The position numbers were made by a program, and so were the translations under genes. Below the pieces are notes generated by a model. That model was not told where the DNA came from and made no database searches. It was given only the letters and a program-made list of their open reading frames with translations. This document shows, piece after piece, positions 37,230 to 62,702 of a stretch of DNA of 64,000 nt (the stretch's first letter is position 1; each line of letters begins with the position of its first letter). The DNA lies in NCBI RefSeq assembly GCF_013344685.1, contig NZ_CP050137.1, forward strand, positions 2,721,001 through 2,785,000. Reading direction: 5' to 3'. This DNA comes from Sphingomonas sp. CL5.1 (GTDB lineage: Bacteria; Pseudomonadota; Alphaproteobacteria; Sphingomonadales; Sphingomonadaceae).

Positions 37230-37595
37230 ATGTCGATCTCTTCCCTCCGGCGCGGTATCGCGACCGGCTCCGCCGTCGTTCTCGCGTCGCTAGTCGCCCA
37301 TGCGGCAATCGCCCAGACGGCCGCGCCGCCGCCGGCCGCAAGACCGACGGTCGTCGCGCTCGACGATGCGCAACTCGGGCAGGAACGCGGCGGGCAGGCG
37401 ATCGTCGTCGGCAACCAGACGCTCAACAGCAGCCTCACCGGCAACACGATCGCCGGCAACTACACCGCCGGGGCGATCACCCTGTCGGACAATGCCTTCG
37501 CCAATTTCAACGGCATGGGCAATGTCGTGATCAATTCCGGCGCGCAGGCCAATCTGCAGAGCGCGATGAACCTCACCGTCAACCTGGGGAATTGA
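37230..37595 (+). CDS. Small secreted protein with double-glycine leader-like motif
   Basis: A 121-residue protein. Sec signal at 1-29 (ending AHAAIAQ). At 44-55 the sequence LDDAQLGQERGG resembles double-glycine leaders (hydrophobic at -12 and -7, GG at -2/-1). The remaining 66 residues (QAIVVGNQTLNSSLTGNTIA, then SDNAFANFNGMGNVVINSGA) are Asn/Ser/Gly/Ala-rich and could form beta-structure. The next gene encodes a C39 peptidase, the enzyme class that cuts after such motifs. Start at ATG 37230. Probably a minor subunit or nucleator of the amyloid-like system; that is inference. Confidence 0.75.
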   Translation: MSISSLRRGIATGSAVVLASLVAHAAIAQTAAPPPAARPTVVALDDAQLGQERGGQAIVVGNQTLNSSLTGNTIAGNYTAGAITLSDNAFANFNGMGNVVINSGAQANLQSAMNLTVNLGN

Positions 37596-37597
37596 TC

Positions 37598-38374: not shown

Positions 38375-38952
38375 GCCGTCCAGCCATATATCGCGCGCTG
38401 CGCATCGCGGCGCTCGCGCCGGCGGCGTGGATCGCCCCCGCCGCCGCCGACGAGCTTCCCGTCGCCGCGCAGGTCGCGCCGCACATGGTCGCCATGACCG
38501 ACGCGGAAATGGCCGAAGCGCATGGCGGGTTCGACTGGGGCGGGATGAACATAACCTTCGGCGCCGACGTGCAGACCTATCTCAACGGCCAGCTCGCCTT
38601 GCAGACGGTGGTCAACTGGACCGCCAACGGCGCGACGACGCAGACGATCGTCGGCAGCCAGCTGATGCTCGCGGACGTCACGGCGGCGGGCGGGGCGGGG
38701 GGCGGCATCGCCGTTCCGGCGAACCTCTCGAACAGCGTCGTCTATCTCGCCAATGCCGGGCAGACCGCGCTGGTCCAGAATACCAGCGGCGCGTTGCAGA
38801 ACGTGCTGGTCAACGCGATGGCCAATCTCAACGCGGTGCAGCAGACCAACGCCACCGTCACGCTCGGCAATTACGCCGCCTTCGCGGCGACGCTCTGCGC
38901 CGGGGCGCTCAACATGGGGCTGGGGCGCGAGATCGCGAGCTTCTCGCATTGA
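38371..38952 (+). CDS. Second secreted protein with double-glycine leader-like motif
   Basis: A 193-residue protein whose start overlaps the peptidase stop (ATGA at 38371). Sec signal (about 1-27, ending APAAADE). MTDAEMAEAHGG (42-53) mirrors the motif of the protein at 37230: hydrophobic at -12 and -7, acidic at -8, GG at -2/-1. The mature part is Asn/Ala/Gln/Gly-rich with NAGQTALVQNTSGALQNVLV and NATVTLGNYAAF. Possibly FapE/FapA-like minor subunit. Function unproven. Confidence 0.75.
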   Translation: MSRPAIYRALRIAALAPAAWIAPAAADELPVAAQVAPHMVAMTDAEMAEAHGGFDWGGMNITFGADVQTYLNGQLALQTVVNWTANGATTQTIVGSQLMLADVTAAGGAGGGIAVPANLSNSVVYLANAGQTALVQNTSGALQNVLVNAMANLNAVQQTNATVTLGNYAAFAATLCAGALNMGLGREIASFSH

Positions 38953-38965
38953 CGGGATGCGCCGG

Positions 38966-40270
38966 TCAGAAGGTGAAGGGCAGGCGCAGCGTCATCGCCA
39001 CGCCCGGCGCGTCCTGCGTCACCCCGAACTGGAACGCGAGCGTCACCGATTGCCGCTGGTTGACGCGATAGGACATGCCGAGATCGAGCGTGCCGGCCTG
39101 AAGCGTCGAGGAATCCTGGAAGCTGCCGTTCAGCTCGGTCCGCGTCGGCATGATATAGGTATGGCTGTAGCCGAGCGAGAAGGAGAAGCGCGGGTTGATC
39201 GCGAAGCCGAAGCCGATGTTCGCGGTGATCGCGCCGCCCGGCCGGACATGGCCGATCAGCGTGCCGTTGACGGTGCGGTCGATGTCGCGCGCGAACTGAT
39301 AAAGATAGGATATTCCTCCATAGATCACCGCCGGATCCGACGGCAGCAGCACCGTCAGCCCCGGCTGCACGCCCCAGAATCCCGATCCGGTCGCCAGCCC
39401 GTGCGCGATACCGAATTCGTCATAGGCGATCGAGAACGGGCTGACCCCGGTATCGCTCTTCACGCGCAGCCCAGCGATGAAGATCGGCGCCTCGGGGTTG
39501 AGCGGGGCGTTGATCTGCCAGCGCAGCGCGCCTTCGATATCGCCGATCGCGCTTTCATGCAGGTCGAAGCCCTCGGTCACGGTGCCGTCGCGGACCTGCG
39601 ACAGGTGGATGCTGTCGGTGCGGATCATCGCCGGGATCATCAATTCGCCTTCGAGCCGGCTGGTGAAGCCGTGCCAGATCGTCAGCGCGTCGATCGTCGT
39701 GTTGCGATCGGCGGTCGACGCCTGGATCGAGCCGATCTGCAATCCCGGCACCAGCTCTATCCCGGCGAACACCAGCCGGTCGTTGGCGGAGCGGATATAG
39801 GTCAGCGATGCCTGTACGGTGGTCTTGCCGGCGGGAGTCAGCACGCCTTGGCCCTGCGGCACCGCCTGCGTCTTGTCCGCGATATCGGGCTTGGCCGCCT
39901 GCGCGTCACCCACTGTTTCCTGCGGCGGGGCGGAACTGGTTTGCGTCGCCGGTACCGCGGCCTGCGTGCCGATGCCGGTGGCGCGCGCCGCGGCGAGATC
40001 CGTGGCGGTTTCGCGGCGCAGCACCGCGATCTCCTCGCGATCCGCCGTGATCTGCTTCTGCTGGGCGTCGATCTGCGCCTGTTGCGCCGCGACCCTGGCG
40101 GTGAGATCGGCGAGTTGCCGCTCGATCGAGGGGGCGGCTTGCGTCGCGGCGGCGGGGGGCGCCGAAGCGGGCGCCGCCTGCGTGGGCGCCGGATCGTCCG
40201 CCGCCCATGCCGCGCGGGGGAAAAGGATCAGGCAACCGGCGCAGAGCCAGCGGGTCGTTGCGTGGGACAT
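38966..40270 (-). CDS. Outer-membrane beta-barrel with N-terminal coiled coil (FapF-like)
   Basis: A 434-residue protein. Signal peptide (about 1-23), an Ala/Pro/Thr-rich linker, a coiled-coil (about 49-85: RQLADLTARVAAQQAQIDAQ, then ITADREEIAVLRRE), and a C-terminal beta-barrel (about 140-434, ending LRLPFTF with the terminal Phe typical of outer-membrane proteins). This layout resembles FapF, the trimeric amyloid exporter, and its length is similar. Its start overlaps the stop of the upstream Crp/Fnr gene (TGATG), so it is translationally coupled to it. It is convergent with the secreted-protein operon. A generic phenol-degradation-type porin is an alternative. Confidence 0.7.
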   Translation of the reverse strand: MSHATTRWLCAGCLILFPRAAWAADDPAPTQAAPASAPPAAATQAAPSIERQLADLTARVAAQQAQIDAQQKQITADREEIAVLRRETATDLAAARATGIGTQAAVPATQTSSAPPQETVGDAQAAKPDIADKTQAVPQGQGVLTPAGKTTVQASLTYIRSANDRLVFAGIELVPGLQIGSIQASTADRNTTIDALTIWHGFTSRLEGELMIPAMIRTDSIHLSQVRDGTVTEGFDLHESAIGDIEGALRWQINAPLNPEAPIFIAGLRVKSDTGVSPFSIAYDEFGIAHGLATGSGFWGVQPGLTVLLPSDPAVIYGGISYLYQFARDIDRTVNGTLIGHVRPGGAITANIGFGFAINPRFSFSLGYSHTYIMPTRTELNGSFQDSSTLQAGTLDLGMSYRVNQRQSVTLAFQFGVTQDAPGVAMTLRLPFTF

Positions 40271-42406: not shown

Positions 42407-42886
42407 ATGAATCAGGAATCGGGACAGAAAAGTGAGGGGGAGAGCGGCACCGGGCAACTCGACCTGCGGATGTGGGTGCGCCTGCTCGGTTGCGCCAAGA
42501 TCATCGAGAAGCAGCTTCGCCGCAATTTCCAGGATCAGTTCGACACCACCCTGCCGCGCTTCGACGTGATGGCGGCGCTGGATCGCGTGGCGGAGGGGTT
42601 GACGATGGGGGCGCTGTCACGCGCGCTGCTGGTGTCGAACGGCAACGTCACCGCGATCGTGCGGCAGTTGCAGGAACTGGGCATGGTCATATCCCGGCCC
42701 GATCCGGCGGACGGCCGCTCGGCGATCGTCGCGCTCACCCCGCGCGGCAAGGTGCATTTCGCCACGCTGGCGTCGGCGCATCACCAGTGGGTGCGAACGG
42801 CGCTGAAGGACTTTCCGCCCGACCGGCAGGAACAACTGCTGACGCTATTGACCGATCTGCGCCGTTCGCTGTCGAGAGGGGAGTGA
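42407..42886 (+). CDS. MarR family regulator (ahead of the 2-aminobenzoyl-CoA genes)
   Basis: A 159-residue protein. MarR winged helix: LPRFDVMAALDRVAEGLTMG, SRALLVSNGNVTAIVRQLQE and the wing DPADGRSAIVALTPRG with the conserved D-x-R motif. 205 bases upstream of the flavoprotein gene on the same strand. Members of this family often sense aromatic acids or their CoA thioesters. Effector unknown. Confidence 0.9.
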   Translation: MNQESGQKSEGESGTGQLDLRMWVRLLGCAKIIEKQLRRNFQDQFDTTLPRFDVMAALDRVAEGLTMGALSRALLVSNGNVTAIVRQLQELGMVISRPDPADGRSAIVALTPRGKVHFATLASAHHQWVRTALKDFPPDRQEQLLTLLTDLRRSLSRGE

Positions 42887-43091: not shown

Positions 43092-45410
43092 ATGAAGGTG
43101 GCATGCGTCGGTGGCGGCCCGGCCGGGTTGTATTTCGCGATCTCGATGATGCTGCGCGATCCCTCGCACGACATCACCGTGTTCGAGCGCAACCGGCCCG
43201 GCGACACGTTCGGCTGGGGCGTGGTGTTCTCCGACCAGACAATGGAGCATCTTCAGGAGAACGATCCCGTCAGCGCGCAGGCGATGATCGATGAGTTGGC
43301 GCATTGGGACGACATCGAGGTCCATATCGAGGACGGCGAGCGCAACGTATCCAATCGATCGAGCGGCCACGGCTTCATCGGCATCGGGCGCAAGCGCCTG
43401 CTCAACATCCTTCAGGATCGCGCCCGCGAACTGGGCGTCAGGCTGGAGTTCGAGGCCGAGATCGAGCCGGACGACGCTTTCCTCGACCAATATGATCTGG
43501 TGATCGCCGCTGACGGCCTGAACAGCAAGCTGCGCAAAAGGTTCGAGACGGAATTCCAGCTCGATCTCGACGTGAAGCGCAACAAGTTCGTCTGGCTCGG
43601 CACGCACCAGAGGTTCGACGCGTTCAACTTCATCTTCAAGAACACGCGCTTCGGCTGGATCTGGGCGCACGCCTATCAGTTCGACAAGGACACCGCGACC
43701 TTCATCGTCGAATGCGAGCCGGAAACCTATGACCGAGCCGGCTTCGCGGAGATGACGCAGGAGGAATCCTGCCGTCTGTGCGAGGAGATATTCGCCGACC
43801 ATCTCGGCGGGCACGAGCTGATGACCAACGCGAAGCATATTCGCGGCTCGGCGTGGATCAACTTCCCGCGCATCATCTGCCGCCAGTGGAGCCACCGCAA
43901 CATCGTCCTGCTGGGCGACGCGGCGCATACCGCGCATTTCTCGATCGGCTCGGGCACCAAGCTCGCGCTGGAGGATGCGATCAAGCTGGCCGAGGTGATG
44001 AACCGGCCGGGGATCGGCAGCGGCGATGCCTTGCAGCAAGGCCTCGTCGAATATCAGGAGGAGCGGCAGCTCGAGGTCGTCAAGCTCCAGAACGCGGCAC
44101 GCAACTCGACCGAATGGTTCGAGCATCTCGAGCGCTACCTGAAGATGGACCCGATGCAGTTCACCTATACGCTGCTGACGCGCAGCCAGCGGGTGAGCCA
44201 CGAGAATCTTCGGCTGCGCGACCCGGCATGGCTGGCGGCGTTGGAGCGCAGCCTGACCGAAAGCGCGCTCGGCGAGACGGTGGAGCAGCCGCTGCCGCCG
44301 ATGTTCCTGCCGTTCCGGCTGCGCGGGATGACGATGCGCAACCGCGTGGTCATGTCCCCGATGGCGATGTATTCGGCTGAGGATGGCATGCCCAACGATT
44401 TCCACCTCGTCCATTACGGCGCGCGCGCGCTGGGTGGGGCGGGGCTGATCGTCACCGAGATGACCTGCGTGTCGCCCGAAGGCCGCATCACCCCCGGCTG
44501 CACCGGCATGTGGAACGAGCAGCAGGCCGATGCTTGGCGGCGCATCACCGATTTCGTCCACACCCAGCCCGGCGCGCGCATCTGCATGCAGCTCGGCCAC
44601 AGCGGCTCCAAGGGTTCGACCCGCGTGGCGTGGGAGGGGATGGACAGGCCGCTGGTGAGCGGCAACTGGCAGGTGGTGGCGCCGTCGGACGTGCCGTGGA
44701 CGGCGGAAAACCAGGTGCCGGTGGCGCTCGACCGCGCGGGCATGGACCGCATCCGCGACGAGTTCGTCACCGCGACGCGGCTCGCGGACGCGGCCGGGTT
44801 CGACATGGTCGAGCTGCATTGCGGCCACGGCTATCTCCTGTCCGGCTTCATCAGCCCGACGCAGAACCGGCGCACCGACGAATATGGCGGCCCGCTCGCC
44901 AACCGGCTGCGTTATCCGCTGGAGGTTTTCCGGGCGATGCGCGCGGCGTGGCCCGAGGATAAGCCGATGTCGGTGCGCATTTCCGCGCACGATTGGGTGG
45001 GCGAGGATGGCGTGACCCCCGATGAGGCGGTCGAGATCGCGCGTGCCTTCAGCGCGGCGAGCGTCGACCTGATCGACGTGTCCTCGGGGCAGGTCACCAA
45101 GGCCGAGAAGCCGGTCTATGGCCGCATGTTCCAGACACCCTTCTCGGACCAGATCCGCAACGAGCTGGGCGTGGCGACGATGGCGGTCGGCAACATCTAC
45201 GAGATCGATCACGTCAATTCGATCATCGCCGCCGGCCGCGCGGACCTCTGCGCGATGGGCCGCCCGCACCAGATGGACCCGAATTTCACCATCCACGCCT
45301 CGGCGACCTACCAGCTCGACGACACGCACATCCCGGTCCAGTATCGCAGCGGCTATTTCCAGCTCAAGCTCAACACCGCGCGCGCCAGCCAGTTGGTCAC
45401 GATCAAGTGA
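43092..45410 (+). CDS. Fused FAD monooxygenase / OYE-type reductase (2-aminobenzoyl-CoA or salicylyl-CoA type)
   Basis: A 772-residue fusion. Residues 1-390: a salicylate-hydroxylase-type FAD domain with [11 protein letters not shown] and [20 protein letters not shown]. Residues 400-765: an old-yellow-enzyme domain ([53 protein letters not shown]). This architecture is that of 2-aminobenzoyl-CoA monooxygenase/reductase (and salicylyl-CoA 5-hydroxylase/oxidoreductase), which hydroxylates and partly reduces the ring. Which CoA ester is used cannot be read off; the neighbouring genes favour 2-aminobenzoyl-CoA. The SDR gene overlaps its stop. Confidence 0.9.
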
Positions 45411-46165
45411 GCGCGGCGACCCATGCCGTCGTGACCGGCGGGGGCAGCGGGATCGGGCTGGCGATCGCGCGCGCGCTGGCCGGGGCGGGGCATCGCGTCA
45501 CCATCATGGGGCGCAACCCCGCGCGGCTCGATGGCGCGCTGGCGTCGCTGCCGGGCGCGGCGTCGATCCCGTGCGACGTGGCGGATGCGGCGTCGGTGGA
45601 GGCGGCATTCGGCGCGGCGGCGGAGCGGCAGGGCGCGGTCGGCATCCTCGTCAACGCCGCCGGCGTCGCGCGCACCGCGCCGTTCGAATCGTCGTCCGAT
45701 GACCTGTGGAACGAATTGTGGCGCATCAACGTGATGGGCGCGGTCCACACCAGCCGCGCGGTGCTGCCGGCGATGCGCGGGCTGGAGAGCGGGCGCATCG
45801 TCAACGTCGCCAGCACAGCCTCGCTCAAGGGCTATGCCTATGTCAGCGCCTATAGCGCGACCAAGCACGCGCTGCTGGGCATGACGCGCGCGCTGGCGCT
45901 GGAGCTGGCCAGGACCGCGATCACCGTCAACGCGCTGTGCCCCGGCTATACCGATACCGATCTGATCCGCGATGCGGTCGCCAATATCGTCGCCAAAACC
46001 GGCCGCACGGAGGCGCAGGCGCTCGCCAGCTTCACCGCCACCAATCCGCAGGGCCGGCTGATCGAGCCGGAGGAAGTGGTCGGCGCGATCGCGTGGCTGA
46101 TCTCGCCCGCCGCGCGATCGGTCACGGGGCAGGCAATCACCATCGCCGGCGGCGAGATCATGTAA
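45407..46165 (+). CDS. Short-chain dehydrogenase/reductase
   Basis: A 252-residue classical SDR. NAD(P)-binding [15 protein letters not shown] (about 10-24), [15 protein letters not shown], catalytic Ser and [10 protein letters not shown] (YxxxK), [11 protein letters not shown] start overlapping the flavoprotein stop (45407-45410). Closest in style to 3-hydroxyacyl-CoA or 3-hydroxybutyrate-type dehydrogenases. A step in processing the dearomatised ring is likely by context. Confidence 0.92.
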
Positions 46166-46176
46166 GGAGAATGAGG

Positions 46177-46992
46177 ATGGAGTTCGACGCCGCGGCCTAT
46201 CGGCCAAGCCATTTCGCCTATGCGTTCGCCGATCGCGTCGCGACGATCACGCTCAACCGGCCGGAGCGCAAGAACCCGCTGACCTTCGAATCCTATGCCG
46301 AGCTGCGCGACCTGTTCCGCGCGCTCGTCTATGCGCCCGCCGTGAAGGCGGTGGTCGTCACCGGCGCGGGCGGCAATTTCTGCTCCGGCGGCGACGTGCA
46401 CGAGATCATCGGGCCGCTGACCAGGATGGACATGCCCGAACTTCTCGCCTTCACGCGGATGACGGGCGATCTGGTCAAGGCGATGCGCAAATGCCCGCAG
46501 CCGATCGTCGCGGCGATCGACGGCGTGTGCGCGGGCGCGGGCGCGATCATGGCGATGGCGTCCGACATCCGCTTCGCCACCCCCGCCGCCAGGACGGCTT
46601 TCCTGTTCACCCGCGTCGGGCTGGCGGGCGCGGACATGGGGGCCTGCGCGATCCTGCCGCGCATCATCGGGCAGGGGAGGGCGGCGGACCTCCTGTTCAG
46701 CGGCCGCTCCTTCTCCGCCGAGGAGGGCGAGCGCTGGGGCTTCTTCAACCGCGTCGTCGCGGCGGATGCGCTCCAGGGCGAGGCCGCCGCTTATGCCGCG
46801 ATGCTCGCGCAGGGGCCGACCTTCGCGCACGGCATGACCAAGAACCAGCTCGAGATGGAATGGGCGCTGCCGGTCGAAACCGCGATCGAGGCGGAGGCGC
46901 AGGCGCAGGCGATCTGCATGCAGACCAGGGATTTCGAGCGCGCCTATCACGCCTTCGTCGCGAAGCAGAAGCCGGTGTTCGAGGGGAACTGA
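46177..46992 (+). CDS. Enoyl-CoA hydratase/isomerase family (crotonase) protein
   Basis: A 271-residue crotonase-fold protein: [36 protein letters not shown] (oxyanion hole), [24 protein letters not shown] in part, and [20 protein letters not shown]. The ATG at 46177 is preferred over 46171 because AAGGAG (46164-46169) then has seven bases spacing. A C-C bond hydrolase, hydratase or isomerase role on the ring-derived CoA ester is inferred. Confidence 0.9.
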
Positions 46993-46993
46993 C

Positions 46994-48175
46994 ATGGCCG
47001 ACGACAGCTTCATCCACTGGCCGTTCTTCGACGACAGCCACCGCGCGCATCTCGCCGAACTGAACGCATGGTGCGCCGCCAACGCGCACGCGCTGCATGT
47101 CGAGACGGACGACGTGAACGCCGATTGCCGCAAGCTGGTGGCGCTGCTTGGCGCGGCGGGGGTGTTCCGCAACGCCGTGCCGGCCGCGCATGGCGGCACG
47201 CGCGATCGGGTCGACGTGCGTATGCTCTGCCTGACGCGGCAGACGCTCGCCTGGCATTCGGGGCTGGCCGATTTCGCCTTCGCGATGCAGGCGCTCGGCA
47301 CCGGCGCGCTGGCGCTGGCCGGCGCGGAGACCGCCAAGGCACGCTATTTGCCGGGCGTCGCGGCGGGCGAACTGATCGCCGGTTTCGCGCTGTCCGAGAA
47401 GGAAGCCGGATCCGATGTCGCCGCGATGACGACGCGCGCCGAGAAGGTGCCGGGCGGTTGGCGGATCGATGGCGAGAAGACGTGGATATCGAACGGCCCG
47501 ATCGCCGATGTGCTCACCGTCTTCGCCCGCACCGGGGGGGCAGGCGCGAAGGGCATCTCCGCCTTCTTCGTGCCGACCGCGACGCCGGGCTTCTCGGTGG
47601 TCGAGGAGATCGACGTGATCGCGCCGCATCCGCTGGCGACGATCCGCTTCGACGGCTGCATCGTCCCCGACGATCACCTGATCGGCGCGGAGGGCGAGGG
47701 CTTCAAGGTGGCGATGGCGACGCTCGACATGCTGCGCTCCACCGTCGGCGCGGCCGCGCTCGGCTTCGCGCGGCGGGCGACCGACGAGGCGCTGGCTCGC
47801 GTCACCACGCGCAAATTGTTCGGCGGCGTGCTCGCCGATCTGCAACTGACGCAGGCGTCGCTGGCGGACATGGCGCTGGGCAATGATGCGAGCGCGCTGC
47901 TGATTTATCGCGCGGCATGGGCCAAGGATCAGGGCCAGCCGCGCATCACGCGCGAGGCGGCGATGGCCAAGCTCTACGCCACCGACACCGCGCAGGCGAC
48001 GATCGACAAGGCGGTGCAATTGTTCGGCGGCGCCGGCGTCGCGCGTGGCAACATGGTCGAGCGGCTCTATCGCGAGGTGCGCGCGCTGCGCATCTACGAG
48101 GGCGCGAGCGAGGTGCAGAAGGTAGTGATCGCCCGCGCGGCGATCGCCGATTTCCAGAAGGGAGCGAAGGCATGA
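46994..48175 (+). CDS. Acyl-CoA dehydrogenase
   Basis: A 393-residue FAD-dependent dehydrogenase: [20 protein letters not shown] and [19 protein letters not shown] at the FAD/substrate interface, [19 protein letters not shown], and the C-terminal [16 protein letters not shown] with the catalytic-type Glu. Substrate not deducible; operon context suggests a cyclic or branched CoA ester from ring dearomatisation. Two bases from the crotonase gene. Confidence 0.92.
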
Positions 48176-48564
48176 GGGTGCTGCAACCGGCCGGCTGGCC
48201 GCGTCCCAAAGGTTATTCCAACGGGATCGAGGTGCGCGGACGGCAGATCTTCGTCGCCGGCCTGATCGGCTGGAACGCCGAGGAGAAGTTCGAGGCGAAG
48301 GACCTGCCTGGCCAGTTCGAGCAACTGCTGCACAACCTGATCGCCGTGCTCGCCGAGGCGGATGCCGGGCCGGAGCATGTCGTGCGGATGACGTGGTACA
48401 TCACCGACAAGCAGGCCTATCTGCGCGACGCGAAGCGGATCGGCGAAATCTACCGCGCGATCATGGGCCGCGTCTTTCCGGTGATGGCGGTGGTGCAGGT
48501 CGTCGCGCTGATGGAAGACGAGGCGAAGATCGAGATCGAGGTGACGGCGGTCGTTCCCGACTGA
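48172..48564 (+). CDS. RidA/YjgF-family protein
   Basis: A 130-residue protein of the RidA fold, starting [20 protein letters not shown], with [18 protein letters not shown] and a C-terminal [20 protein letters not shown]. The canonical imine-deaminase arginine in the FPARS position is replaced (FPVMA), so it belongs to a different Rid subfamily and may not act like E. coli RidA. Start overlaps the acyl-CoA dehydrogenase stop (ATGA). May process an enamine/imine product from the 2-amino-ene CoA ester, a guess. Confidence 0.88.
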
Positions 48565-48589
48565 CCGGATTTTTTTGAGGATTTCAGGC

Positions 48590-49765
48590 ATGACTCCTTT
48601 CGACTGGGCGGACCCTTTCTTTCTCGACGATCAGCTCTCCGATGACGAGCGGATGGTGCGGGACACGGCGCGCGCCTATGCGCGGGAGAGGCTGGCGCCG
48701 CGCGTGATCGACGCCTTCGCCAACGAGGTGACCGACCCGGCGATCTTCCGCGAGATGGGGGCGCTCGGCCTGCTCGGCCCGACGGTGCCGGAGGAATATG
48801 GCGGGGTCGGCGCGTCTTACGTCGCCTATGGCCTCGTCGCGCGCGAGGTGGAGCGGATCGACTCGGGCTATCGCTCGATGATGAGCGTGCAGTCGAGCCT
48901 CGTCATGTATCCGATCTACGCCTATGGCTCGGAGGAGCAGAAGCGCAAGTATCTGCCGAAGCTGGCGTCGGGCGAGTGGATCGGCTGCTTCGGCCTGACC
49001 GAGCCGGATGCGGGCTCCGACCCCGGCGGCATGAAGACCCGCGCGGTCAAGACCGACGGCGGCTATCGCATCTCGGGCAGCAAGACGTGGATATCGAACG
49101 CGCCGATCGCGGATGTGTTCGTGATCTGGGCGAAGTCCGACGCGCATGGCGGCGGCATCCGCGGCTTCGTGCTGGAGAAGGGCATGAAGGGCCTCTCCGC
49201 GCCGAAGATCGAGGGCAAGCTCAGCTTGCGTGCCTCGATCACCGGGATGGTGATGATGGACGAGGTGGAGGTCGGCGAGGACGCGCTGCTTCCCGAGGTG
49301 CAGGGGCTGAAGGGGCCGTTCGGCTGCCTCAACCGCGCGCGCTACGGCATCTCGTGGGGGGCGCTGGGCGCGGCGGAATTCTGCTTCCATGCCGCGCGGC
49401 AATATGGGCTGGACCGGCACCAGTTCGGCAGGCCGCTCGCCGCCAACCAGCTCTACCAGAAGAAGCTCGCCGACATGGAGACCGAGATCGCGCTCGGCTT
49501 GCAGGCGAGCCTGCGCGTCGGGCGGCTGATGGACGAGGGGAAGTTCGCGCCGGAGATGATCTCGATCGTCAAGCGCAACAATGTCGGCAAGGCGCTCGAT
49601 ATCGCGCGGATGAGCCGCGACATGCACGGCGGCAACGGTATCTCCGGCGAATATCAGGTGATGCGCCACCTCATCAACCTCGAGACCGTCAACACCTATG
49701 AGGGCGCCCATGACGTCCACGCCCTCATCCTCGGACGCGCCATCACCGGTATCGCCGCTTTCTGA
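48590..49765 (+). CDS. Glutaryl-CoA dehydrogenase-like acyl-CoA dehydrogenase
   Basis: A 391-residue protein very close to GcdH in its diagnostic segments: [18 protein letters not shown] (Arg95 is the glutarate-binding arginine), [56 protein letters not shown] and [20 protein letters not shown] followed by [19 protein letters not shown] with the catalytic Glu. It oxidises and decarboxylates glutaryl-CoA to crotonyl-CoA. ATG at 48590. Convergent with the IorB-like gene. Confidence 0.92.
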
Positions 49766-49866
49766 CGAACAGCGGCGATCAGCCCGCCGAACCGCGCGCG
49801 AATTGTCGTGTTGGCGCGAGCGGCTTGTGCGCGGAACAGCCTTGAGCGCGCTTCCGGATTGAACGA

Positions 49867-51369
49867 TCAGGCGGCGCGGTCGGACGCGACAGCGCAGGCC
49901 AGCGCCTTGCCGTTCTCATCGGCGAGCGCCGCCTCGCGCAGCGTCCGGATACGTTCCGCCGCATCGGGGTGGCCCGCGAATGGCCGCGCCGCGTCCATGA
50001 CCGTCCCGAAATTGGCGAGGCCGCGCTCGAACGTGTCGGAATAGCCTTTGATGAGCTGCTGGCAGGCGAGCAATTCGGTCGCCGCCGCGCGATCGCTCCG
50101 GGCGGTGTCACGGACGAAGGCCAGCCACTCCTCGATCCGCGCCTGCTCCTCGCGATAGCGCAAGGTCGAGCGGCGGATCGCGCGGAGCGATGCCAGCAGG
50201 CGCAATGTCAGGAACCAGCGCAGCCCCGTCGTCTCGACATGCCGGCCGCGTCGGAACAGCGGCTCCAGCCAGCGCGACAGGCGCGGGCTGCGCAGGATGA
50301 ACGCGCCGATCCCGGCGGGCATCGTCTCGCACACCTCGCGCAGGCGCGGGTGCATATATTCGGTGACGGTCATCACCTGATCCGGCGCGAGCCGCACCTC
50401 CGCCGCGACGCGCGCGCTGCGGGTGGCGCGGACCTTGAGGTCGGCGACGCGGATCGTGTCCTCATAGGCCATCCAAAGCGCGAGGTAACGCGCCGCCTCG
50501 CCGGTCATGCGTCCATCGTCGTCCAGCGCCGCGATCGGCGCGAGGCGCGACAGATAAAGATCGGCATAGGCGCGGTCCTGATAATCCATCAGTCGCCGCA
50601 CGCCCTCGATCGCGATCGGGCGCGCCGCCTCGGGCAGTTCCGCCTCGATCCGGGCGAGCAGGGCGCGGCCCGCCTCGGTGGTCGGCGCGGGCGGACTGGC
50701 CGGGACCGCCGCCGCCGGATCGCCGTCACGCGCGCGATCGAACCCCAGCCCGAAGCCCTTGAGGTTGCTTTCGATCGCCTTGCCGCCGTGGCGGATCGCT
50801 TCCTCGAACGCGTCGCGCGGGAAGGGGAGGCTTTCGCTCGCCGCCAGCGCGCCGAACATCACCGAACTGATGACGCTCCCTGAGGCCGAGGCGGCGGCCG
50901 CCATGTCGAAGCCGATGAAGCGATGTGACCGCCGCTCGGCCGCGTCGAGAATGCGGGCGCCCGCGCCGATGCCGTCGCCCAGCGCCGCTTTCTCGGAAAT
51001 GGCATAGACGCGGTGGGTCGATCCGATCAGCGTCGTGCGGTCCTCGCTGACGAAGCCGCGCAGGATCGCGCGGCCCGCCTCCATCAATTCGGAGGCGATC
51101 ACGATATCCACGTCGCCCGGCACCGGCATCATCGCCAGCACCGGATCGGGGCGGTTAGCGCCGCCCGCGCCGCGCCGGATCATCTCGATATAATAGACGG
51201 TCGATCCGGTGCGCTGCGCCACGCCGGGGACGGAGGTGCCCTGCGTGATATAGCCGTTGCGGCTGGCGACCTCCTGAATCCATTCGGCCAGCACGCCGCC
51301 GCCCTCGCCGCCGAGCGCGAGGATGGCGATGGTGATGCGATCGCGGTCGAGCGAAAAGGGAAGGTCCAT
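49867..51369 (-). CDS. Indolepyruvate:ferredoxin oxidoreductase, beta-type subunit
   Basis: A 500-residue protein. The N-terminal half is a gamma/beta-type POR-family domain (ITIAILALGGEGGGVLAEWI, GTSVPGVAQRTGSTVYYIEM, VIASELMEAGRAILRGFV), fused to a long C-terminal part (about 200-500) that is helical. Start at ATG 51369, overlapping the alpha subunit's stop (TGATG), so the pair is coupled. The enzyme oxidatively decarboxylates 2-oxoacids to acyl-CoA with ferredoxin. Here the likely substrate is an aryl 2-oxoacid such as 2-aminophenylglyoxylate (isatinate) or indolepyruvate. Confidence 0.9.
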   Translation of the reverse strand: MDLPFSLDRDRITIAILALGGEGGGVLAEWIQEVASRNGYITQGTSVPGVAQRTGSTVYYIEMIRRGAGGANRPDPVLAMMPVPGDVDIVIASELMEAGRAILRGFVSEDRTTLIGSTHRVYAISEKAALGDGIGAGARILDAAERRSHRFIGFDMAAAASASGSVISSVMFGALAASESLPFPRDAFEEAIRHGGKAIESNLKGFGLGFDRARDGDPAAAVPASPPAPTTEAGRALLARIEAELPEAARPIAIEGVRRLMDYQDRAYADLYLSRLAPIAALDDDGRMTGEAARYLALWMAYEDTIRVADLKVRATRSARVAAEVRLAPDQVMTVTEYMHPRLREVCETMPAGIGAFILRSPRLSRWLEPLFRRGRHVETTGLRWFLTLRLLASLRAIRRSTLRYREEQARIEEWLAFVRDTARSDRAAATELLACQQLIKGYSDTFERGLANFGTVMDAARPFAGHPDAAERIRTLREAALADENGKALACAVASDRAA

Positions 51370-53498
51370 CAGAAAGCCCTCGCGGCGATGCTGCGCGCCT
51401 GCCGCCGTTGCAGCCAGCCGATCACCGCCCCGCGCAGCCGCGCCTTGAAACGGTCCCGGCCGGTCGGGTTGGTGACGATGCTCGCCTTGTAGAAGGAGGG
51501 GCAGAGGATTGCGGCATGCGCGACCTCGCCGCAATTGCCGCAGCCCACGCAGCTATTGTCGATATGCGTCACCGGGTGCTGCCGCAGCGGATCGGGATTG
51601 GGCTGGATGCTCAGCGACGGGCAGCCGGAAAGGCGGATGCAGGCATGGTCCCCGGTGCAGGTGTCGGGATCGACGCCGAACCGCTCGCGCACCACGCGCT
51701 TGCCCTCCTTCGCCGCTTTGGCGAGCAGCGGCTTGATCCGGCGCTGCTTGTTCAGCATGCACTCGGATTGCGCGACGATCAGCTTCGGGCCTTTGTCCTT
51801 CGTGGTCAGCGCCTCGCGCAACGTGTCGCGCATCCGCGCCACGTCATAGGTGCGCGGCAGCGTGCGCGCCCATTTCACGCCGATACCGCGCGCCGCCTGC
51901 TCGATCGGATGGTTGGTCGCGCGCGTATCGTTCCGCGCGCGGGAGGAGAGGATGTCCTGCCCCCCGGTCGCGGCCGAATAGCCGTTGTCGACGACGATCG
52001 TCACCGTCTCGTCCTGGTTGAACACCGCGTTGCCGAGGCCGGAGGTGAGGCCGTTGTGCCAGAAGCCGCCGTCGCCCATCATCGCCACCGCGCGCTTGCC
52101 CTCCGGCTTGAACGCGGAGGCCGCCGCCGTGCCGAGGCCATAGCCCATCGTGGTGTTGCCGATGTGAAACGGCGGCAGGATCGAGAACAGGTGGCAGCCG
52201 ATATCGGCCGAGACATGCAGCTCGCCCAGCTCGCGCTGCACCAGCTTCATCGCGGAGAAGATCGGCCGCTCCGGGCAGCCGGTGCAGAACCCCGCCGGGC
52301 GTGGGGGGACGTTGCCGGCAAGCTCCGGCTCGGGCGGGGCGGGGGGGAGCGGCGCCGTCGGAGCGCGATCGGGAGCCCAGGCTTGCAGGAAGGCGATCAC
52401 GCCATCGCGGATCACCTGCCCTGAATATTCGCCCGCGCGCGGCATGACATCCTTGCCGACGATGCGCGTCTGGAGATCGGCCTTGCGGATCAGCGTGTTC
52501 AGTTCGTGCTCGATGAACTCGGGCTGCCCTTCCTCCAGCACCAGCACCGCCTTCTTGCCGGCGCAGAAGGCGCGCACCTCATCCGGGATCAGCGGATAGA
52601 CGACGTTGAGGCAATAGATCGGCAGCTTCGAGGCGGCATAGGCGTCGGACAGGCCCGCCAGCTCCAGCGCGCGGTTGAGCGTGTTGAACAGCCCGCCCTG
52701 CACGATGATGCCGATCTCGTCGCGCTCGGGGCCGAACCATTCGTTGAGGCGGCGTTCGGCGATGAACTTCAGCGCGGCGGGCCAGCGCCGCTCGATCTTC
52801 TCGATCTCGTGGAGGAAGTTCGCGGGCGGCAGCACGATGCGCTCCAGGTCGCGGCGCGGATTGGCGGCGGCCTGCCCCACCGTCAGCGGCGGACGCCTGT
52901 TGTCCTTCGCAACGAAGCTGCCGGTCATGTGGCAGCTCCGCACGCGCATCTCGATCATGACCGGCGTGTTCGACGCTTCGGACAGCTCGAAACCGGTTTC
53001 CACCATTTCGACGATCGTCGGCAGGTTGGGGCGCGGATCGAGCAGCCACATCTGCGACTTCATCGCGAAGGCGTGGGTGCGCTCCTGCATGATCGAGGAG
53101 CCTTCGCCATAATCCTCGCCGATGATGACGAGCGCGCCGCCGGTCACGCCGCCCGAGGCGAGATTCGACAATGCGTCCGAGGCGACGTTGGTGCCGACCA
53201 CCGATTTCCACGCCACCGCGCCGCGCAGCGGATAATTGACCGATGCGGCGAGCATCGCGCCCGCCGCCGCCTCGTTGGCATTGGATTCGAAATGGACGTC
53301 AAGCTCACGCAGCAAAGGATCGGCGTCCGAGAACACGTCCATCAGGTGGCTGATCGGCGATCCCTGATAGCCGCCGACATAGGCCACCCCCGCTTGCAAC
53401 AACGCCTTGGTGACGGCGAGGATGCCCTCGCCCTCGAACGTCTCGCCCGCGCCGAGACGGAGCTTTTCGACCTCTTTCTTGAACGAGCGTTCGGCCAT
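51369..53498 (-). CDS. Indolepyruvate:ferredoxin oxidoreductase, alpha-type subunit
   Basis: A 709-residue protein. N-terminal POR domain (YVGGYQGSPISHLMDVFSDA, VHFESNANEAAAGAMLAASV), a ThDP-binding domain with GFCTGCPERPIFSAMKL, GDGGFWHNGLTSGLGNAV and NGYSAATGGQ, and a C-terminal two-cluster ferredoxin-like domain (CTGDHACIRLSGCPS and CVGCGNCGEVAHAAILCPS). Accepts 2-oxoacids and makes acyl-CoA, CO2 and reduced ferredoxin. Six bases after the cyclase-family gene in the same operon. Confidence 0.92.
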   Translation of the reverse strand: MAERSFKKEVEKLRLGAGETFEGEGILAVTKALLQAGVAYVGGYQGSPISHLMDVFSDADPLLRELDVHFESNANEAAAGAMLAASVNYPLRGAVAWKSVVGTNVASDALSNLASGGVTGGALVIIGEDYGEGSSIMQERTHAFAMKSQMWLLDPRPNLPTIVEMVETGFELSEASNTPVMIEMRVRSCHMTGSFVAKDNRRPPLTVGQAAANPRRDLERIVLPPANFLHEIEKIERRWPAALKFIAERRLNEWFGPERDEIGIIVQGGLFNTLNRALELAGLSDAYAASKLPIYCLNVVYPLIPDEVRAFCAGKKAVLVLEEGQPEFIEHELNTLIRKADLQTRIVGKDVMPRAGEYSGQVIRDGVIAFLQAWAPDRAPTAPLPPAPPEPELAGNVPPRPAGFCTGCPERPIFSAMKLVQRELGELHVSADIGCHLFSILPPFHIGNTTMGYGLGTAAASAFKPEGKRAVAMMGDGGFWHNGLTSGLGNAVFNQDETVTIVVDNGYSAATGGQDILSSRARNDTRATNHPIEQAARGIGVKWARTLPRTYDVARMRDTLREALTTKDKGPKLIVAQSECMLNKQRRIKPLLAKAAKEGKRVVRERFGVDPDTCTGDHACIRLSGCPSLSIQPNPDPLRQHPVTHIDNSCVGCGNCGEVAHAAILCPSFYKASIVTNPTGRDRFKARLRGAVIGWLQRRQARSIAARAF

Positions 53499-53503
53499 TT
53501 CCG

Positions 53504-54283
53504 TTACTCCGCGACCAGCGCGAGCACGCGCAAGGGACTACCCGAGCCGCCCGCGATTTTGAGCGGGGCTGAGACGATCACCGCGCCGGTCGGCGGAAGC
53601 TGGTCGAGGTTCTGGAGGCACTGCAGGCCATAGCGGCCCGCGCCGTGGAACAGGGTGTGCGCGGGATAGGGCGGGTCCATCAGATGTGCCTGACCGGCAT
53701 CGGTGCCGATCGTCTCCACGCCGAAGCCGTGCGCGTCACGTTCCTCGATCAGGAAGCGGCACGCCTCCGGGTCCGGCCCCGGCGTGTGTGCGCCGTCCTC
53801 ACGGCGGTTGGTGTAGGCGTCCACGTCGCGCTTCGACCAGTCGGTGCGGAACAGCACCCAGCTACGCGGCGGGATGCGGCCATGCTTCGCCTCCCACGCC
53901 TCGATCACTTCGCGGGTCAGGACGAAATCGGCGTCCGCCGCGCATTCGGCCGAACAGTCGATCACCACGGCGGGCGCGATGAAATTCTCCGGCGCGATCG
54001 CATCGACGGTGTTGGCCGGCAGGTCCTTGCCCGTCACCCAATGGATCGGCGCGTCGAAATGCGTGCCGGTATGCTCGCCGACAGTGAAGTTGTTCCAATA
54101 CCAGGCGACGCCGCGCTCGTCATAGCGCGAAATCTCCTCGCGGCTGAACGCGGCGGTCTGGCCGAACGGCTCTGGCAGGACGAGGAGCGGCGTGTCCTCC
54201 GACAGCATCTGCGTCAGGTCGACGGTGCGGATCGAGCCGTTGGCGACGGCCTGCGCGAACTGGGTGAGCGTGGCGAGCGACAT
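53504..54283 (-). CDS. Cyclase-family hydrolase (isatin hydrolase / kynurenine formamidase-like)
   Basis: A 259-residue protein. The metal-binding motif HTGTHFDAPIHW (about 90-101) and PPRSWVLFRTDWSKR are characteristic of the cyclase superfamily (PF04199): kynurenine formamidase and Mn-dependent isatin hydrolase. IGTDAGQAHL and FHGAGRYGLQCLQNL also match. RBS AGAGGA precedes the ATG at 54283, giving a shorter product than the longest frame. The direct downstream neighbours encode an indolepyruvate-type oxidoreductase, so hydrolysis of isatin to isatinate (2-aminophenylglyoxylate) would supply its substrate; this is inference. Confidence 0.88.
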   Translation of the reverse strand: MSLATLTQFAQAVANGSIRTVDLTQMLSEDTPLLVLPEPFGQTAAFSREEISRYDERGVAWYWNNFTVGEHTGTHFDAPIHWVTGKDLPANTVDAIAPENFIAPAVVIDCSAECAADADFVLTREVIEAWEAKHGRIPPRSWVLFRTDWSKRDVDAYTNRREDGAHTPGPDPEACRFLIEERDAHGFGVETIGTDAGQAHLMDPPYPAHTLFHGAGRYGLQCLQNLDQLPPTGAVIVSAPLKIAGGSGSPLRVLALVAE

Positions 54284-54392: not shown

Positions 54393-54881
54393 ATGAAAAA
54401 GCAGCCTGCCGACAGCCGGGGTCTGGGCGATCCGGGCACCACCGCATTCCGCGTCGGCAAATATCCTTTCTTCCTGCTCAACCGGCTGGTGAGCCGCTAT
54501 AACGGCGTGATCGAGCCGCGATTGCGCGCGATCGGGCTGGATATCCCTTACTGGCGCGTGCTGATGATCCTCGGCGAGGCTTCCCCGCGCGGCGTGCGCG
54601 ATCTCGCCGATGCGGCGGTGATCCCGCTCTCCACCATGACCCGCATCGTCCAGCGCATGGCGACCGCCGGGCTGGTCGAGGCCGGCCCCAGCGCGGAGGA
54701 TGCACGGGTGACGATGGTGAAGCTCACCGCGACGGGCGAGGAGAAGCTGGCCGAGGCGCGTTCCGCGACTTCGCCGGTCTATGCCCGGACGATCGACGGC
54801 CTGTCCGCGCGCGATTTCGACCGATTGGTCGACCTGCTGGAGCGGCTTCACGCCAATCTGGGGGATCAGGCGATGTCGTAG
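54393..54881 (+). CDS. MarR family regulator
   Basis: A 162-residue protein: winged helix IPYWRVLMILGEASPRGVRD, DAAVIPLSTMTRIVQRMA, wing SAEDARVTMVKLTATGE. It is divergent from the cyclase operon (start 54283) with a candidate operator between them. Its last 16 bases overlap the convergent ABM-like gene. Likely autogenous and local control of the locus. Confidence 0.9.
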   Translation: MKKQPADSRGLGDPGTTAFRVGKYPFFLLNRLVSRYNGVIEPRLRAIGLDIPYWRVLMILGEASPRGVRDLADAAVIPLSTMTRIVQRMATAGLVEAGPSAEDARVTMVKLTATGEEKLAEARSATSPVYARTIDGLSARDFDRLVDLLERLHANLGDQAMS

Positions 54882-55162
54882 CAGATCAATTCCGTCGCCC
54901 GTGGCTTTTCACGTGAGAGGGCCATCGCCGCGCCGAGTTCGCCGGGCAGCACGGCTCCGGCTTCGGCGCGCGCTTCGGGCGAGGTCCATTTCTCGACGAA
55001 ATAGCAGGCGTCGTGCTCGCGATCGACGAGGATCTGGACGCCGATCAGCCCTGGCCGTCCGATCATCTCCGCGCCCAGTGCGTGCAGCGCCTCGACCAGC
55101 GCGTCCATCTGTCCGGGCAGCGGCAGGAAGCGGTAATCGAAGGCGTGGAGCGGCCCCTTCAT
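54866..55162 (-). CDS. ABM-like (antibiotic biosynthesis monooxygenase-fold) small protein
   Basis: A 98-residue protein. Dimeric alpha-beta-barrel pattern typical of ABM proteins: FLPLPGQMDALVEALHALGA, GVQILVDREHDACYFVEKWT, SPEARAEAGA. Such proteins oxidise or isomerise aromatic substrates without cofactor, or have no known role. Start overlaps the racemase-like gene stop (ATGA at 55159). Overlaps the MarR gene by 16 bases at its 3' end. Last gene of the minus-strand operon from 60109. Confidence 0.75.
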   Translation of the reverse strand: MKGPLHAFDYRFLPLPGQMDALVEALHALGAEMIGRPGLIGVQILVDREHDACYFVEKWTSPEARAEAGAVLPGELGAAMALSREKPRATELICYDIA

Positions 55163-55830
55163 GCAACCCCCGATGATGCGTGGTCGATCGCGGAGAAGAT
55201 ATCATGGACCGGCAATCGCACCGCATCGGCGATGGTGTCGCGATAGGGCGACAGGTTGGTGCATTCGAGGATGATCGCCTCCATCGAAGGAGAGCGCGCG
55301 ACGAAATCCGTAATCGCGCGGAGGATTTCCACCCGCGCGATATCGGGCGAGAAAGCGTCGCACGGGACCGCGCCGGTGAGTGCCCGATAGAGATAATGGT
55401 CGCCCCCCAGTCCGTGGAAGGCGACCCCCTCGATCCGCTCGCCGAACGTGCGCCGCCATAGGGGCAGGAAGCCCAGCTCGACGCTGACGACGCCCACGCC
55501 GCCGGGGTATTGCGCCCGCAGGTGGTCGAGCAGGCATAGGGCGGAACTGACGAACGGCACCGGGCTGTCGGCCTCCAGCCTTGCCTGCCACGGCCAGAGC
55601 ATCCCGCAGGACGTGGCGATGCATCGCGCCCCACACGCCACCAAAATGTCGCGGGCGCGTAGCAACGCGTCGAGCGACGAGGGGAGGAGGCCCTCGCGCA
55701 TCTCGCGCAGGAAATCCTGGAAGGCGATCGCCTCGTAGAGCGTGCCTTCGGGCATCGACGCCGCATCGCCGATTTCGCCCGGCACACGCGGGACGCTCGA
55801 ATTGGCGACGATGACGCCGAGGTCAGCCAT
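55159..55830 (-). CDS. Asp/Glu racemase superfamily protein (racemase, isomerase or arylmalonate-decarboxylase-like)
   Basis: A 223-residue protein. Two catalytic-type cysteines are visible in the expected places: IATSCGMLW (about residue 74) and IILECTNLSPY (about residue 188), with GVGVVSVELGFLPLWRRTF between. The superfamily includes Asp/Glu racemases, hydantoin racemase, maleate isomerase and arylmalonate decarboxylase. Which reaction is done here cannot be told. Eight-base overlap with the upstream FAD gene (55823-55830). Confidence 0.82.
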   Translation of the reverse strand: MADLGVIVANSSVPRVPGEIGDAASMPEGTLYEAIAFQDFLREMREGLLPSSLDALLRARDILVACGARCIATSCGMLWPWQARLEADSPVPFVSSALCLLDHLRAQYPGGVGVVSVELGFLPLWRRTFGERIEGVAFHGLGGDHYLYRALTGAVPCDAFSPDIARVEILRAITDFVARSPSMEAIILECTNLSPYRDTIADAVRLPVHDIFSAIDHASSGVA

Positions 55831-57133
55831 GATCGGGCCAATGCCGCGAGATATGATCGGCGACCCGCGCGCCGCTCAGCGCCGCCCCGCCGAGTAGGGG
55901 CTGGTAGAGATAGTCGCCGGCGTAGAACACCCGCCGCTTCGACGCCTCCTGCAACGCGCGGAACCGCAACGCTTCCTGCCCGTAGCCCGGCATGAACAGC
56001 GGCGTCTTGCTGGCGATCTTCTGCACGAACCAACGCTTAGGTGCGGCGTGCAGCGCGGGGAACAGGCCGCGCATGTCAGCGAGGCAATAGTCCAGCACTT
56101 CGTCGTCGGCGATATCCACGCCCGAACGCTGCACGATCTCCGGCGCGACCGTCAGGGTGACGTGCGTCGCTGGCTGGCCATCGTCCGTCACCGCCGACAC
56201 CTTGGCGGCGGAAATCCAAGGGAAGCGCGGGCCGGACAGGAACCATTGCCCGCCGGGATGCGCGCCAGCGAACAGGCAATGGCAGTAGATGGTGGCGTTA
56301 TAGGTCACCCTGTCGAGGAACGCCCGTTCCTGCGCCGGCAAGGTCGAGACAAGGCCGGCGGCGCGATTACCCTCCACCGCGACGATCGCGAGGTCGAACC
56401 CGCGCGACTCGCCATCAGCCAGCGTCACCGTGCAGCCGCCTGCCTGTTCGGCGACGTCGAGCACCCTTACGCCGATCGTGACGCCCGCGTCCTCGCCCAG
56501 CTTCGCGGTGATCGCGCCGATGCCGCCGTCGATCGCCATCACCGACCGGTCGAACGCGAGCGCGCGCATCATGCTGATGAAGGTGGAAGGGGAGATGTCG
56601 TCCAGCGCCATGCCGCGCGCCGAGCGATAGACGATCCCGACCATCTTCTCCGTCAGCACGCGCCCCATGCGCGGCTCGCAGAAGGCGCGTAACGTCTCGC
56701 CGTCATGGGCAAGCGTGGAGCAGGCGTCGTCGCCGTCCGATCCGCGCGCGCCGAGCACGATTCCCGCCATGAACCGGCCGAGCCGGAATTTGTCCGCGAC
56801 CGAGAAGTCCCGGCTGGTCAGGAATTGCGGCGTCGGGGTCATGTCGACCGACCATTGCCCGCTTTCGGCGATGCAGCGCGCCTGCAATCGCGGCAGGCGG
56901 CGCGTGATGTGGCTCAGCCCGTTGTCGGCGAGCAGCGTCCGCATCGCCGGGCTGAAGCCGTAGAAGATGTTGGCGCCGCTGGTGAAGCGCATCCCCTCGC
57001 GTTCGCAATTCGCCGCGCGGCCGCCGACCGTCGCCTGCGCTTCGTACACGGTCACGTCATATCCGGCGCGCTTCAGGCGGGTCGCGGCCGACAGCCCGGC
57101 GATGCCCGCGCCGATCACGCAGACCGTGGTCAT
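55823..57133 (-). CDS. FAD-dependent amine-oxidase-family oxidoreductase
   Basis: A 436-residue protein. The FAD-binding dinucleotide fold CVIGAGIAGLSAATRLKRAG (about 5-24), then VYEAQATVGGRA (about 31-42), as in protoporphyrinogen oxidase, phytoene desaturase or amine-oxidase-like enzymes. C-terminal FAD contact FYAGDYLYQPLLGGAALSGA. Overlaps the ThDP-enzyme stop (ATGA at 57130) and the racemase gene. Substrate unknown; an indole or dioxindole oxidation step is a speculative fit with the locus. Confidence 0.82.
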   Translation of the reverse strand: MTTVCVIGAGIAGLSAATRLKRAGYDVTVYEAQATVGGRAANCEREGMRFTSGANIFYGFSPAMRTLLADNGLSHITRRLPRLQARCIAESGQWSVDMTPTPQFLTSRDFSVADKFRLGRFMAGIVLGARGSDGDDACSTLAHDGETLRAFCEPRMGRVLTEKMVGIVYRSARGMALDDISPSTFISMMRALAFDRSVMAIDGGIGAITAKLGEDAGVTIGVRVLDVAEQAGGCTVTLADGESRGFDLAIVAVEGNRAAGLVSTLPAQERAFLDRVTYNATIYCHCLFAGAHPGGQWFLSGPRFPWISAAKVSAVTDDGQPATHVTLTVAPEIVQRSGVDIADDEVLDYCLADMRGLFPALHAAPKRWFVQKIASKTPLFMPGYGQEALRFRALQEASKRRVFYAGDYLYQPLLGGAALSGARVADHISRHWPDHG

Positions 57134-62623: not shown

Positions 62624-62702
62624 CGCCCAATCCTCCCATGAGTTAGGTTTCTATGATATTGATTATATTTATTTATTCCGGGCCTTGCGGGCCGGGGCGG
62701 GT

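Follow-up and report, generated by a model that had tools for sequence, protein, structure and literature searches.

Isatin hydrolase, IorAB and an ABMR-type flavoprotein in one Sphingomonas locus: a candidate ligase-free route from isatin to 2-aminobenzoyl-CoA

How might isatin breakdown enter the ring cleavage of coenzyme A (CoA) thioesters where the locus for both carries no CoA ligase? The question is raised by a locus of Sphingomonas sp. CL5.1, lying in a window of 64,000 nt (the whole stretch of DNA analyzed here; G000:C1:2721001-2785000, within a 4.57-Mb genome), that combines genes for an isatin hydrolase of the cyclase family and for the subunits IorA and IorB of a 2-oxoacid oxidoreductase with an operon headed by a flavoprotein of the 2-aminobenzoyl-CoA monooxygenase/reductase (ABMR) type. 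From the sequence, we consider it likely that the locus is a module for the breakdown of auxin, or of another indole, in which IorAB would turn isatinate into 2-aminobenzoyl-CoA, followed by ABMR and by steps resembling beta-oxidation. A first-pass annotation had listed these genes at 43092..54283 and had noted the lack of a CoA ligase; all the named genes were found as open reading frames, no CoA ligase gene was found in the locus, and the comparisons below support the interpretation given there.

The rightward operon (43,092-49,765) codes for a fusion of an FAD monooxygenase with an Old Yellow Enzyme domain, a short-chain dehydrogenase/reductase (SDR), a crotonase, an acyl-CoA dehydrogenase, a Rid-family protein and a glutaryl-CoA dehydrogenase; facing it, a leftward operon (54,283-49,867) codes for the isatin hydrolase, IorA and IorB, and the IorB ATG overlaps the IorA stop codon in the sequence TGATG. 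The features are as follows:

42407..42886, + strand: MarR-family regulator, 5′ of the ABMR operon (PF12802, 46 bits); its relatives recur next to ABMR clusters
43092..45410, + strand: ABMR-type fusion, proposed 2-aminobenzoyl-CoA monooxygenase/reductase (NF006101, 1287 bits, cut-off 1078; PF01494 and PF00724)
45407..46165, + strand: SDR dehydrogenase, proposed for a keto/hydroxy step on the ring product (PF00106, 189 bits); recurrent in ABMR clusters
46177..46992, + strand: crotonase-family protein (PRK08258), proposed hydratase or ring-opening hydrolase (NF006107, 486 bits, cut-off 330)
46994..48175, + strand: acyl-CoA dehydrogenase (PF00441, 147 bits)
48175..48564, + strand: Rid-family protein, proposed enamine/imine deaminase removing the amino group (PF01042, 69 bits)
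48590..49765, + strand: glutaryl-CoA dehydrogenase (683 bits to 4w9u, which is filed as an acyl-CoA dehydrogenase, and 630 bits to the glutaryl-CoA dehydrogenase 3d6b)
49867..51369, - strand: IorB/IadB-type beta subunit with DUF6537 (NF006179, 671 bits with the frame scanned from 51420, cut-off 348; PF01558 and PF20169)
51369..53498, - strand: IorA/IadA-type alpha subunit, proposed isatinate:acceptor oxidoreductase (CoA-acylating) (TIGR03336, 273.3 bits, under the equivalog cut-off of 650.9)
53504..54283, - strand: isatin hydrolase (IadI type), cyclase family (165/252 positions identical to 5nmp and 157/256 to 5nnb; PF04199, 143 bits)
54393..54881, + strand: MarR-family regulator, divergent from the cyclase (best PDB match 7kua, 96 bits)

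Genome G489, which has another genus code, shows the same layout in its locus L351 (Rid, acyl-CoA dehydrogenase, crotonase, SDR and ABMR, then glutaryl-CoA dehydrogenase, IorB-IorA-isatin hydrolase and MarR), and no ligase was found across the 17 kb of that locus. The recurrence of the same genes together in other genera confirms that their grouping exceeds chance.

In the proposed pathway, whose catalytic steps, order after ABMR and electron acceptor are all predicted from sequence, the cyclase would hydrolyze isatin to isatinate (2-aminophenylglyoxylate), and IorAB (IadAB) would convert isatinate and CoA into 2-aminobenzoyl-CoA and CO2, passing two electrons to a presumed acceptor. The ABMR-type flavoprotein would then hydroxylate and reduce the ring of 2-aminobenzoyl-CoA, the Rid protein would remove the amino group, and the SDR, crotonase and acyl-CoA dehydrogenase would reduce, open and shorten the ring, until glutaryl-CoA dehydrogenase would convert glutaryl-CoA to crotonyl-CoA; such free anthranilate as has been reported would then stem from a shunt or a thioesterase and would not be an obligatory intermediate. 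Phenylglyoxylate oxidoreductase converts phenylglyoxylate to benzoyl-CoA. Its chemistry is that proposed here (arylglyoxylate and CoA to aroyl-CoA and CO2), although it differs in subunit make-up and the substrate of the window's enzyme would bear a 2-amino group. The component families are known, as is an indole degradation that meets 2-aminobenzoyl-CoA by way of anthranilate and a ligase (PMC6221969). We found no proposal of an isatinate to 2-aminobenzoyl-CoA step by IorAB in the open-license literature searched.

The prediction that the cyclase hydrolyzes isatin to isatinate is well founded on sequence comparison. Against solved structures, the protein matched 5nmp (372 bits, 65.5% identity), 5nnb (363 bits) and 4j0n (260 bits), all of them isatin hydrolases, in agreement with the earlier assignment; the sequence HTGTHFDAPIHW on which that assignment drew is present, and HTGTHFD satisfies the isatin hydrolase motif HxGTHxD. 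Kynurenine formamidase was considered and rejected, as solved formamidases gave at most 26 bits and the arylformamidase model gave 29 bits versus a cut-off of 223. Of two possible starts, the ATG at 54283 is favored by its Shine-Dalgarno-like stretch; the TTG-opened frame extends to 54343. FAD oxidoreductases (CrtO-like or other), often paired, lie near isatin hydrolase genes in several other loci (L116-L120, L103, L109, L113, L288, L353, L354), and may serve some earlier step on indoles.

IorA contains a thiamine diphosphate motif (GDG...N, at position 475) and cysteine clusters of a [4Fe-4S]-binding kind; of its 14 cysteines, 12 are invariant across 43 aligned relatives and a thirteenth is shared by 40 or more of them. 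It shares superfamily, cofactor motif and conserved cysteines with archaeal indolepyruvate ferredoxin oxidoreductase, but it falls short of the corresponding IOR_alpha equivalog threshold, and the beta subunit, which passes that of the PRK08312 model (IorB with DUF6537), differs in this additional domain. No solved sequence relatives were found for IorA at E ≤ 0.001 or for IorB at E ≤ 1, and the nearest named relatives of IorA are from Sphingomonas. In a tree of 43 IorA rows, 36 grouped in one clade, 35 of them from loci or genomes bearing isatin hydrolase (for L102, L105 and L108 the hydrolase is on another contig, and for some others in a neighboring stretch); this tree is partly biased, the named rows being drawn from the isatin hydrolase scan. 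The window's IorA shares this clade with those of named loci of the Variovorax, Bradyrhizobium and Castellaniella types. The second clade holds seven rows (G139, G205, G191, two from G019, G231 and the second copy of G379), none labeled with isatin hydrolase; five of the six IorB genomes without isatin hydrolase gave rows in this separate clade, and the sixth, G262, falls among the rows linked to isatin hydrolase.

IorAB genes were also seen on plasmids. A 96-kb plasmid of Sulfitobacter mediterraneus (NZ_CP069000.1, L353; the strain came from a diatom) carries a cyclase, an FAD oxidoreductase, a MarR gene and IorAB together, and 19 Sulfitobacter plasmid records have a match to IorA. The Tsukamurella plasmid NZ_LR134455.1 (L354) carries genes for an AMP-binding protein, an ABMR-type protein, a cyclase, IorAB, two FAD oxidoreductases and RidA; the module therefore crosses phyla, L354 being actinobacterial.

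The ABMR-type protein of the window is full length, with PF01494 at 2-328, PF00724 at 404-737 and positions 1-762 of the 768 of NF006101 covered. It is 56% identical to each of the two ABMR-type proteins of Aromatoleum evansii KB740, which we take to be the ABMR reference strain and which carries two ABMR genes. The first-pass annotation had called for a phylogeny of the flavoprotein against ABMR and salicylyl-CoA enzymes: it belongs to the same family as the KB740 genes, but with no salicylyl-CoA reference sequence in the comparison, phylogeny does not by itself speak against that substrate. The reaction of ABMR, and a related cyclohexanedione-carboxyl-CoA, have been described (PMC3534580). 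The aerobic 2-aminobenzoate CoA pathway of Azoarcus/Aromatoleum evansii and Arthrobacter Rue61a shares with the window the ABMR-type protein, SDR, crotonase, acyl-CoA dehydrogenase and often Rid; however, it has an ATP-dependent 2-aminobenzoate-CoA ligase, where the window has IorAB and isatin hydrolase instead.

Comparisons across 398 Pseudomonadota genomes, with isatin hydrolase scored at E ≤ 1e-40, revealed IorB in 29 and isatin hydrolase in 26, with both in 23 (Fisher 9e-29). Full-length ABMR (at least 968 bits, in 71 genomes, 64 of them over the cut-off and seven full-length below it; two candidates were scored per genome) was present in all 23 genomes with IorB and isatin hydrolase versus 48 of the 375 others (Fisher 2e-19). 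Among 249 sampled Sphingomonadaceae, IorB was found in 27, all of which have isatin hydrolase (at most 6 kb from IorB in 26) as well as full-length ABMR (over the cut-off in 25, and within 30 kb of IorB in 17). Additionally, named genomes were scanned with an isatin hydrolase alignment, taking the best 80 of 580 confirmed places, and ABMR was found in 18 of 18 named genomes picked from these, some of them without IorAB in the stretch.

The usual partner of ABMR is a gene of the benzoate-CoA ligase family (a representative gave 384 bits to TIGR02262, cut-off 375), which is also nearby in four of the five rows nearest to the window's flavoprotein in the ABMR tree. The neighbors of 73 full-length ABMR genes were scored by tblastn, because a gene caller trained on the window, which is rich in GC, predicted hardly any genes, or none, in L108, L109, L114 and L115; three were dropped, with ABMR at a contig end, leaving 70. 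A ligase was in reach at 4 of 16 ABMR loci with IorAB versus 49 of 54 without (Fisher 8e-7), in a comparison that covered about 10 kb on each side for loci without IorAB and went further out for those with it, and that is not phylogenetically clean, one genus code supplying 8 of the 16. Within 20-kb stretches only one of the 16 had a ligase, the wider search adding G331, G197 and G194; likewise, some of the five loci without IorAB that were scored as ligase-less have a ligase beyond the stretch (in G167, at 12.6 kb). The IorAB label needs seven changes on the ABMR tree (FastTree), so that its link with ABMR is not one inherited accident. Genome-wide, with the best 20 candidates scored per genome (for G296, 20 of 74), five of the 71 ABMR genomes lacked such a ligase at E ≤ 1e-70 (G000, which is that of the window, G349, G055, G376 and G296), and all five carry IorAB and isatin hydrolase (0.0026).

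In the window's own genome, the best match to the ABMR-linked ligase reached 157 bits (29% identity), with none at E ≤ 1e-60; ABMR-adjacent ligases of other sphingomonads gave at least 263 bits (36%). At the same threshold, 18 of the 27 IorB sphingomonads, this genome included, lacked the ligase genome-wide, and these were 15 of the 17 in which no more than 30 kb separate ABMR from IorAB versus 3 of the 10 with ABMR apart (Fisher 0.0036), or 16/17 versus 5/10 when scored at ≥48% identity (0.015); where ABMR is apart, six of seven ligases are within 8 kb of it. Such a pattern would follow if the ABMR substrate could come from IorAB in place of the ligase. The IorAB step proposed earlier is independently backed by co-occurrence and by the missing ligase; as a correction to that proposal, many IorAB genomes also keep a CoA ligase.

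The first-pass annotation described IorAB and the cyclase by family, and we correct this to the known genes iadA, iadB and iadI, their counterparts in the iad locus of Variovorax, Achromobacter and Bradyrhizobium. In that locus iadCDEFGH lie beside IorAB, whereas the window lacks them there and adds the ABMR operon; the uncut Variovorax stretches and the Achromobacter ones, among the best 80 of 580 places, show the order IorA-IorB-iadC-D-E-F-G-H-isatin hydrolase, with letters beyond A-E assigned here by order and from PMC12633357. IorAB have been described as exclusive iad markers (PMC9613470), and in the literature examined the pathway ends at anthranilate and gives IadAB no step; IadCDE are the subject of PMC10374108, and iadA and iadB do not occur in the main text of PMC12633357. 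Fragmentary iad clusters have been reported in Sphingomonas and Sphingopyxis (PMC11630574), and the window's locus is probably of that type. No close IadD was found in the window or genome, whose eight Rieske alpha subunits are at most 30-32% identical. Another stretch of the genome, 0.8 Mb away (L122, G000:C1:3563000-3582999), contains iadF, iadG and iadH together with a further isatin hydrolase gene (59% identity), a pair of MarR-like genes, a thioesterase, an FAA hydrolase and a gentisate-dioxygenase-like gene, and no iadCDE in its 20 kb.

Published expression and metabolite data bear on the role of IadAB. In Bradyrhizobium japonicum, which degrades indole-3-acetic acid (IAA) via isatin (PMC9613470), IAA induced iorA 30.7-fold and iorB 7.64-fold, and both were put forward as candidates for IAA degradation with, in the accessible parts of the report, no reaction on IAA intermediates named (PMC3788728). 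In Variovorax, C8H7NO3 and C7H7NO accumulated strongly only upon overexpression of iadC-K2 in a locus-deletion background, and the authors place both before anthranilate (PMC12633357). We assign these formulas to isatinate and 2-aminobenzaldehyde, respectively, and read the background as lacking iadAB; a build-up of isatinate without IadAB is what our model predicts, although overexpression alone would explain it otherwise. On balance we lean, with some reserve, towards IadAB being an ATP-free isatinate:acceptor oxidoreductase and towards an iad route that in many genera runs via 2-aminobenzoyl-CoA, anthranilate in cultures being a leak or thioesterase product. Since free anthranilate has been reported in Variovorax and Bradyrhizobium (PMC9613470), the bypass of anthranilate originally claimed is amended: the IorAB route is supported, whereas free anthranilate is probably still formed, as a by-product. 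The iad loci control auxin removal by plant-associated bacteria and their first two genes serve as family markers; a reaction for IadAB would complete the pathway, would explain a ligase-free feed of isatin breakdown into ring cleavage and would alter the choice of genes for engineered iad constructs.

The regulator beside the cyclase may point to an inducer related to auxin, one of the checks proposed earlier for the locus. Its best PDB match, 7kua (96 bits), is the auxin-binding IacR of Pseudomonas putida, followed by 7l19 (63) and 7l1i (56); lower matches were 3cdh (44) and 7kym (43), barely over OhrR (42), and the Variovorax IadR 7kfo (38). Tyr36 and a Trp-Arg pair align with what we presume to be the IAA contacts of IacR, using a numbering offset that we infer. 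The structures 7kua, 7l19 and 7l1i come from one auxin study, in which 3cdh, from Ruegeria pomeroyi, binds IAA with a dissociation constant (KD) of 0.24 uM. No inverted repeats that could be MarR sites were found in the two intergenic stretches.

An alternative that we regard as unlikely is that isatinate yields free anthranilate by other means, to be activated by a CoA ligase encoded elsewhere, with IorAB serving another 2-oxoacid such as indolepyruvate. Anthranilate is indeed a reported iad end product (PMC9613470, PMC12633357) and is restored in Variovorax by iadC-K2 without iadAB (PMC12633357); genome G327 combines isatin hydrolase with both ligase and ABMR while lacking IorB, the window's own genome has 36 AMP-ligase-like matches at E ≤ 1e-20, and for one strain that degrades indole a 2-aminobenzoyl-CoA gene cluster, ligase included, was called vital to the breakdown of anthranilate (PMC6221969). 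Nevertheless, the closeness of IorB to isatin hydrolase in 26 of 27 sphingomonads, the missing ABMR-linked ligase in 18 of them, the induction of IorAB by IAA and the separate clade formed by the IorA of isatin hydrolase genomes all speak against this alternative. Besides the Variovorax complementation, G327 and the AMP-ligase-like genes, several results weigh against the conversion of isatinate by IorAB: the Fisher tests count genomes as independent, and phylogenetic pairing on starred branches left six independent IorAB/ligase pairs with a median sign-test p of 0.22; a ligase is in reach at four IorAB-linked ABMR loci and present somewhere in 18 of the 23 genomes with IorAB and isatin hydrolase; isatin hydrolase is absent in 6 of 29 IorB genomes, and IorB in 3 of 26 isatin hydrolase genomes. 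Moreover, among the best 80 of 580 isatin hydrolase places, ABMR is inside only three stretches and 42 show both IorA and IorB (38 of the 52 stretches reaching 20 kb do so), counts of IorA and IorB that are limited by stretches often ending at contig ends.

We regard as very improbable a reading in which salicylyl-CoA, or another aryl-CoA, is the substrate of the flavoprotein and its closeness to isatin hydrolase is coincidental catabolic clustering. The NCBI name of NF006101, bifunctional salicylyl-CoA 5-hydroxylase/oxidoreductase, favors a salicylyl substrate and so also counts against our assignment; yet the co-occurrence (23/23, 27/27, and 18/18 of the genomes picked from the best 80 of 580 places), the presence of both KB740 ABMR-type genes in the family and a Rid-family gene not obviously needed for a salicylyl substrate argue for 2-aminobenzoyl-CoA. 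Closer to the proposed conversion is a variant of it, quite possible if somewhat doubtful, in which IorAB makes 2-aminobenzoyl-CoA and some hosts then form 5-hydroxyanthraniloyl-CoA, release it by a thioesterase and cleave it in gentisate fashion, ring reduction being one of two branches. Such a hydroxylation branch is suggested by genes for thioesterase, gentisate-1,2-dioxygenase-like, FAA-hydrolase and nitrilase proteins beside IorAB and/or ABMR in L095, L099, L102 and L108 and, in R. pomeroyi (L355), beside an IorAB pair that has no ABMR with it, one such dioxygenase giving 322 bits to gentisate 1,2-dioxygenase, under the cut-off of 442. The window has the set of SDR, crotonase, acyl-CoA dehydrogenase, Rid and glutaryl-CoA dehydrogenase instead, and a thioesterase was found within 600 bp at only 6 of 75 IorB places, of which two belong to the clade that lacks isatin hydrolase.

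Further genes of the window lie on both sides of those for the proposed IorAB-to-ABMR route. Next to the MarR gene by the cyclase, an operon on the - strand (54866-60109) codes for an ABM-domain protein, an Asp/Glu-racemase-like protein, an amine-oxidase-like flavoprotein, an MFS transporter and an acetolactate-synthase-like thiamine diphosphate enzyme (153 bits to 4rjj); the genes listed next to IorAB in L094 and L351 included no match to the racemase, the flavoprotein or the latter enzyme. On the other side, a gene for a C39 peptidase (+ strand) and one for a FapF-like amyloid exporter (- strand, 117 bits, cut-off 700) lie at 37592-40270 and suggest a functional-amyloid cluster. After the operon at 54866-60109, the stretch 60290-63933 (- strand) contains genes for a TonB receptor, a second Rid-family protein and an AraC-type regulator.

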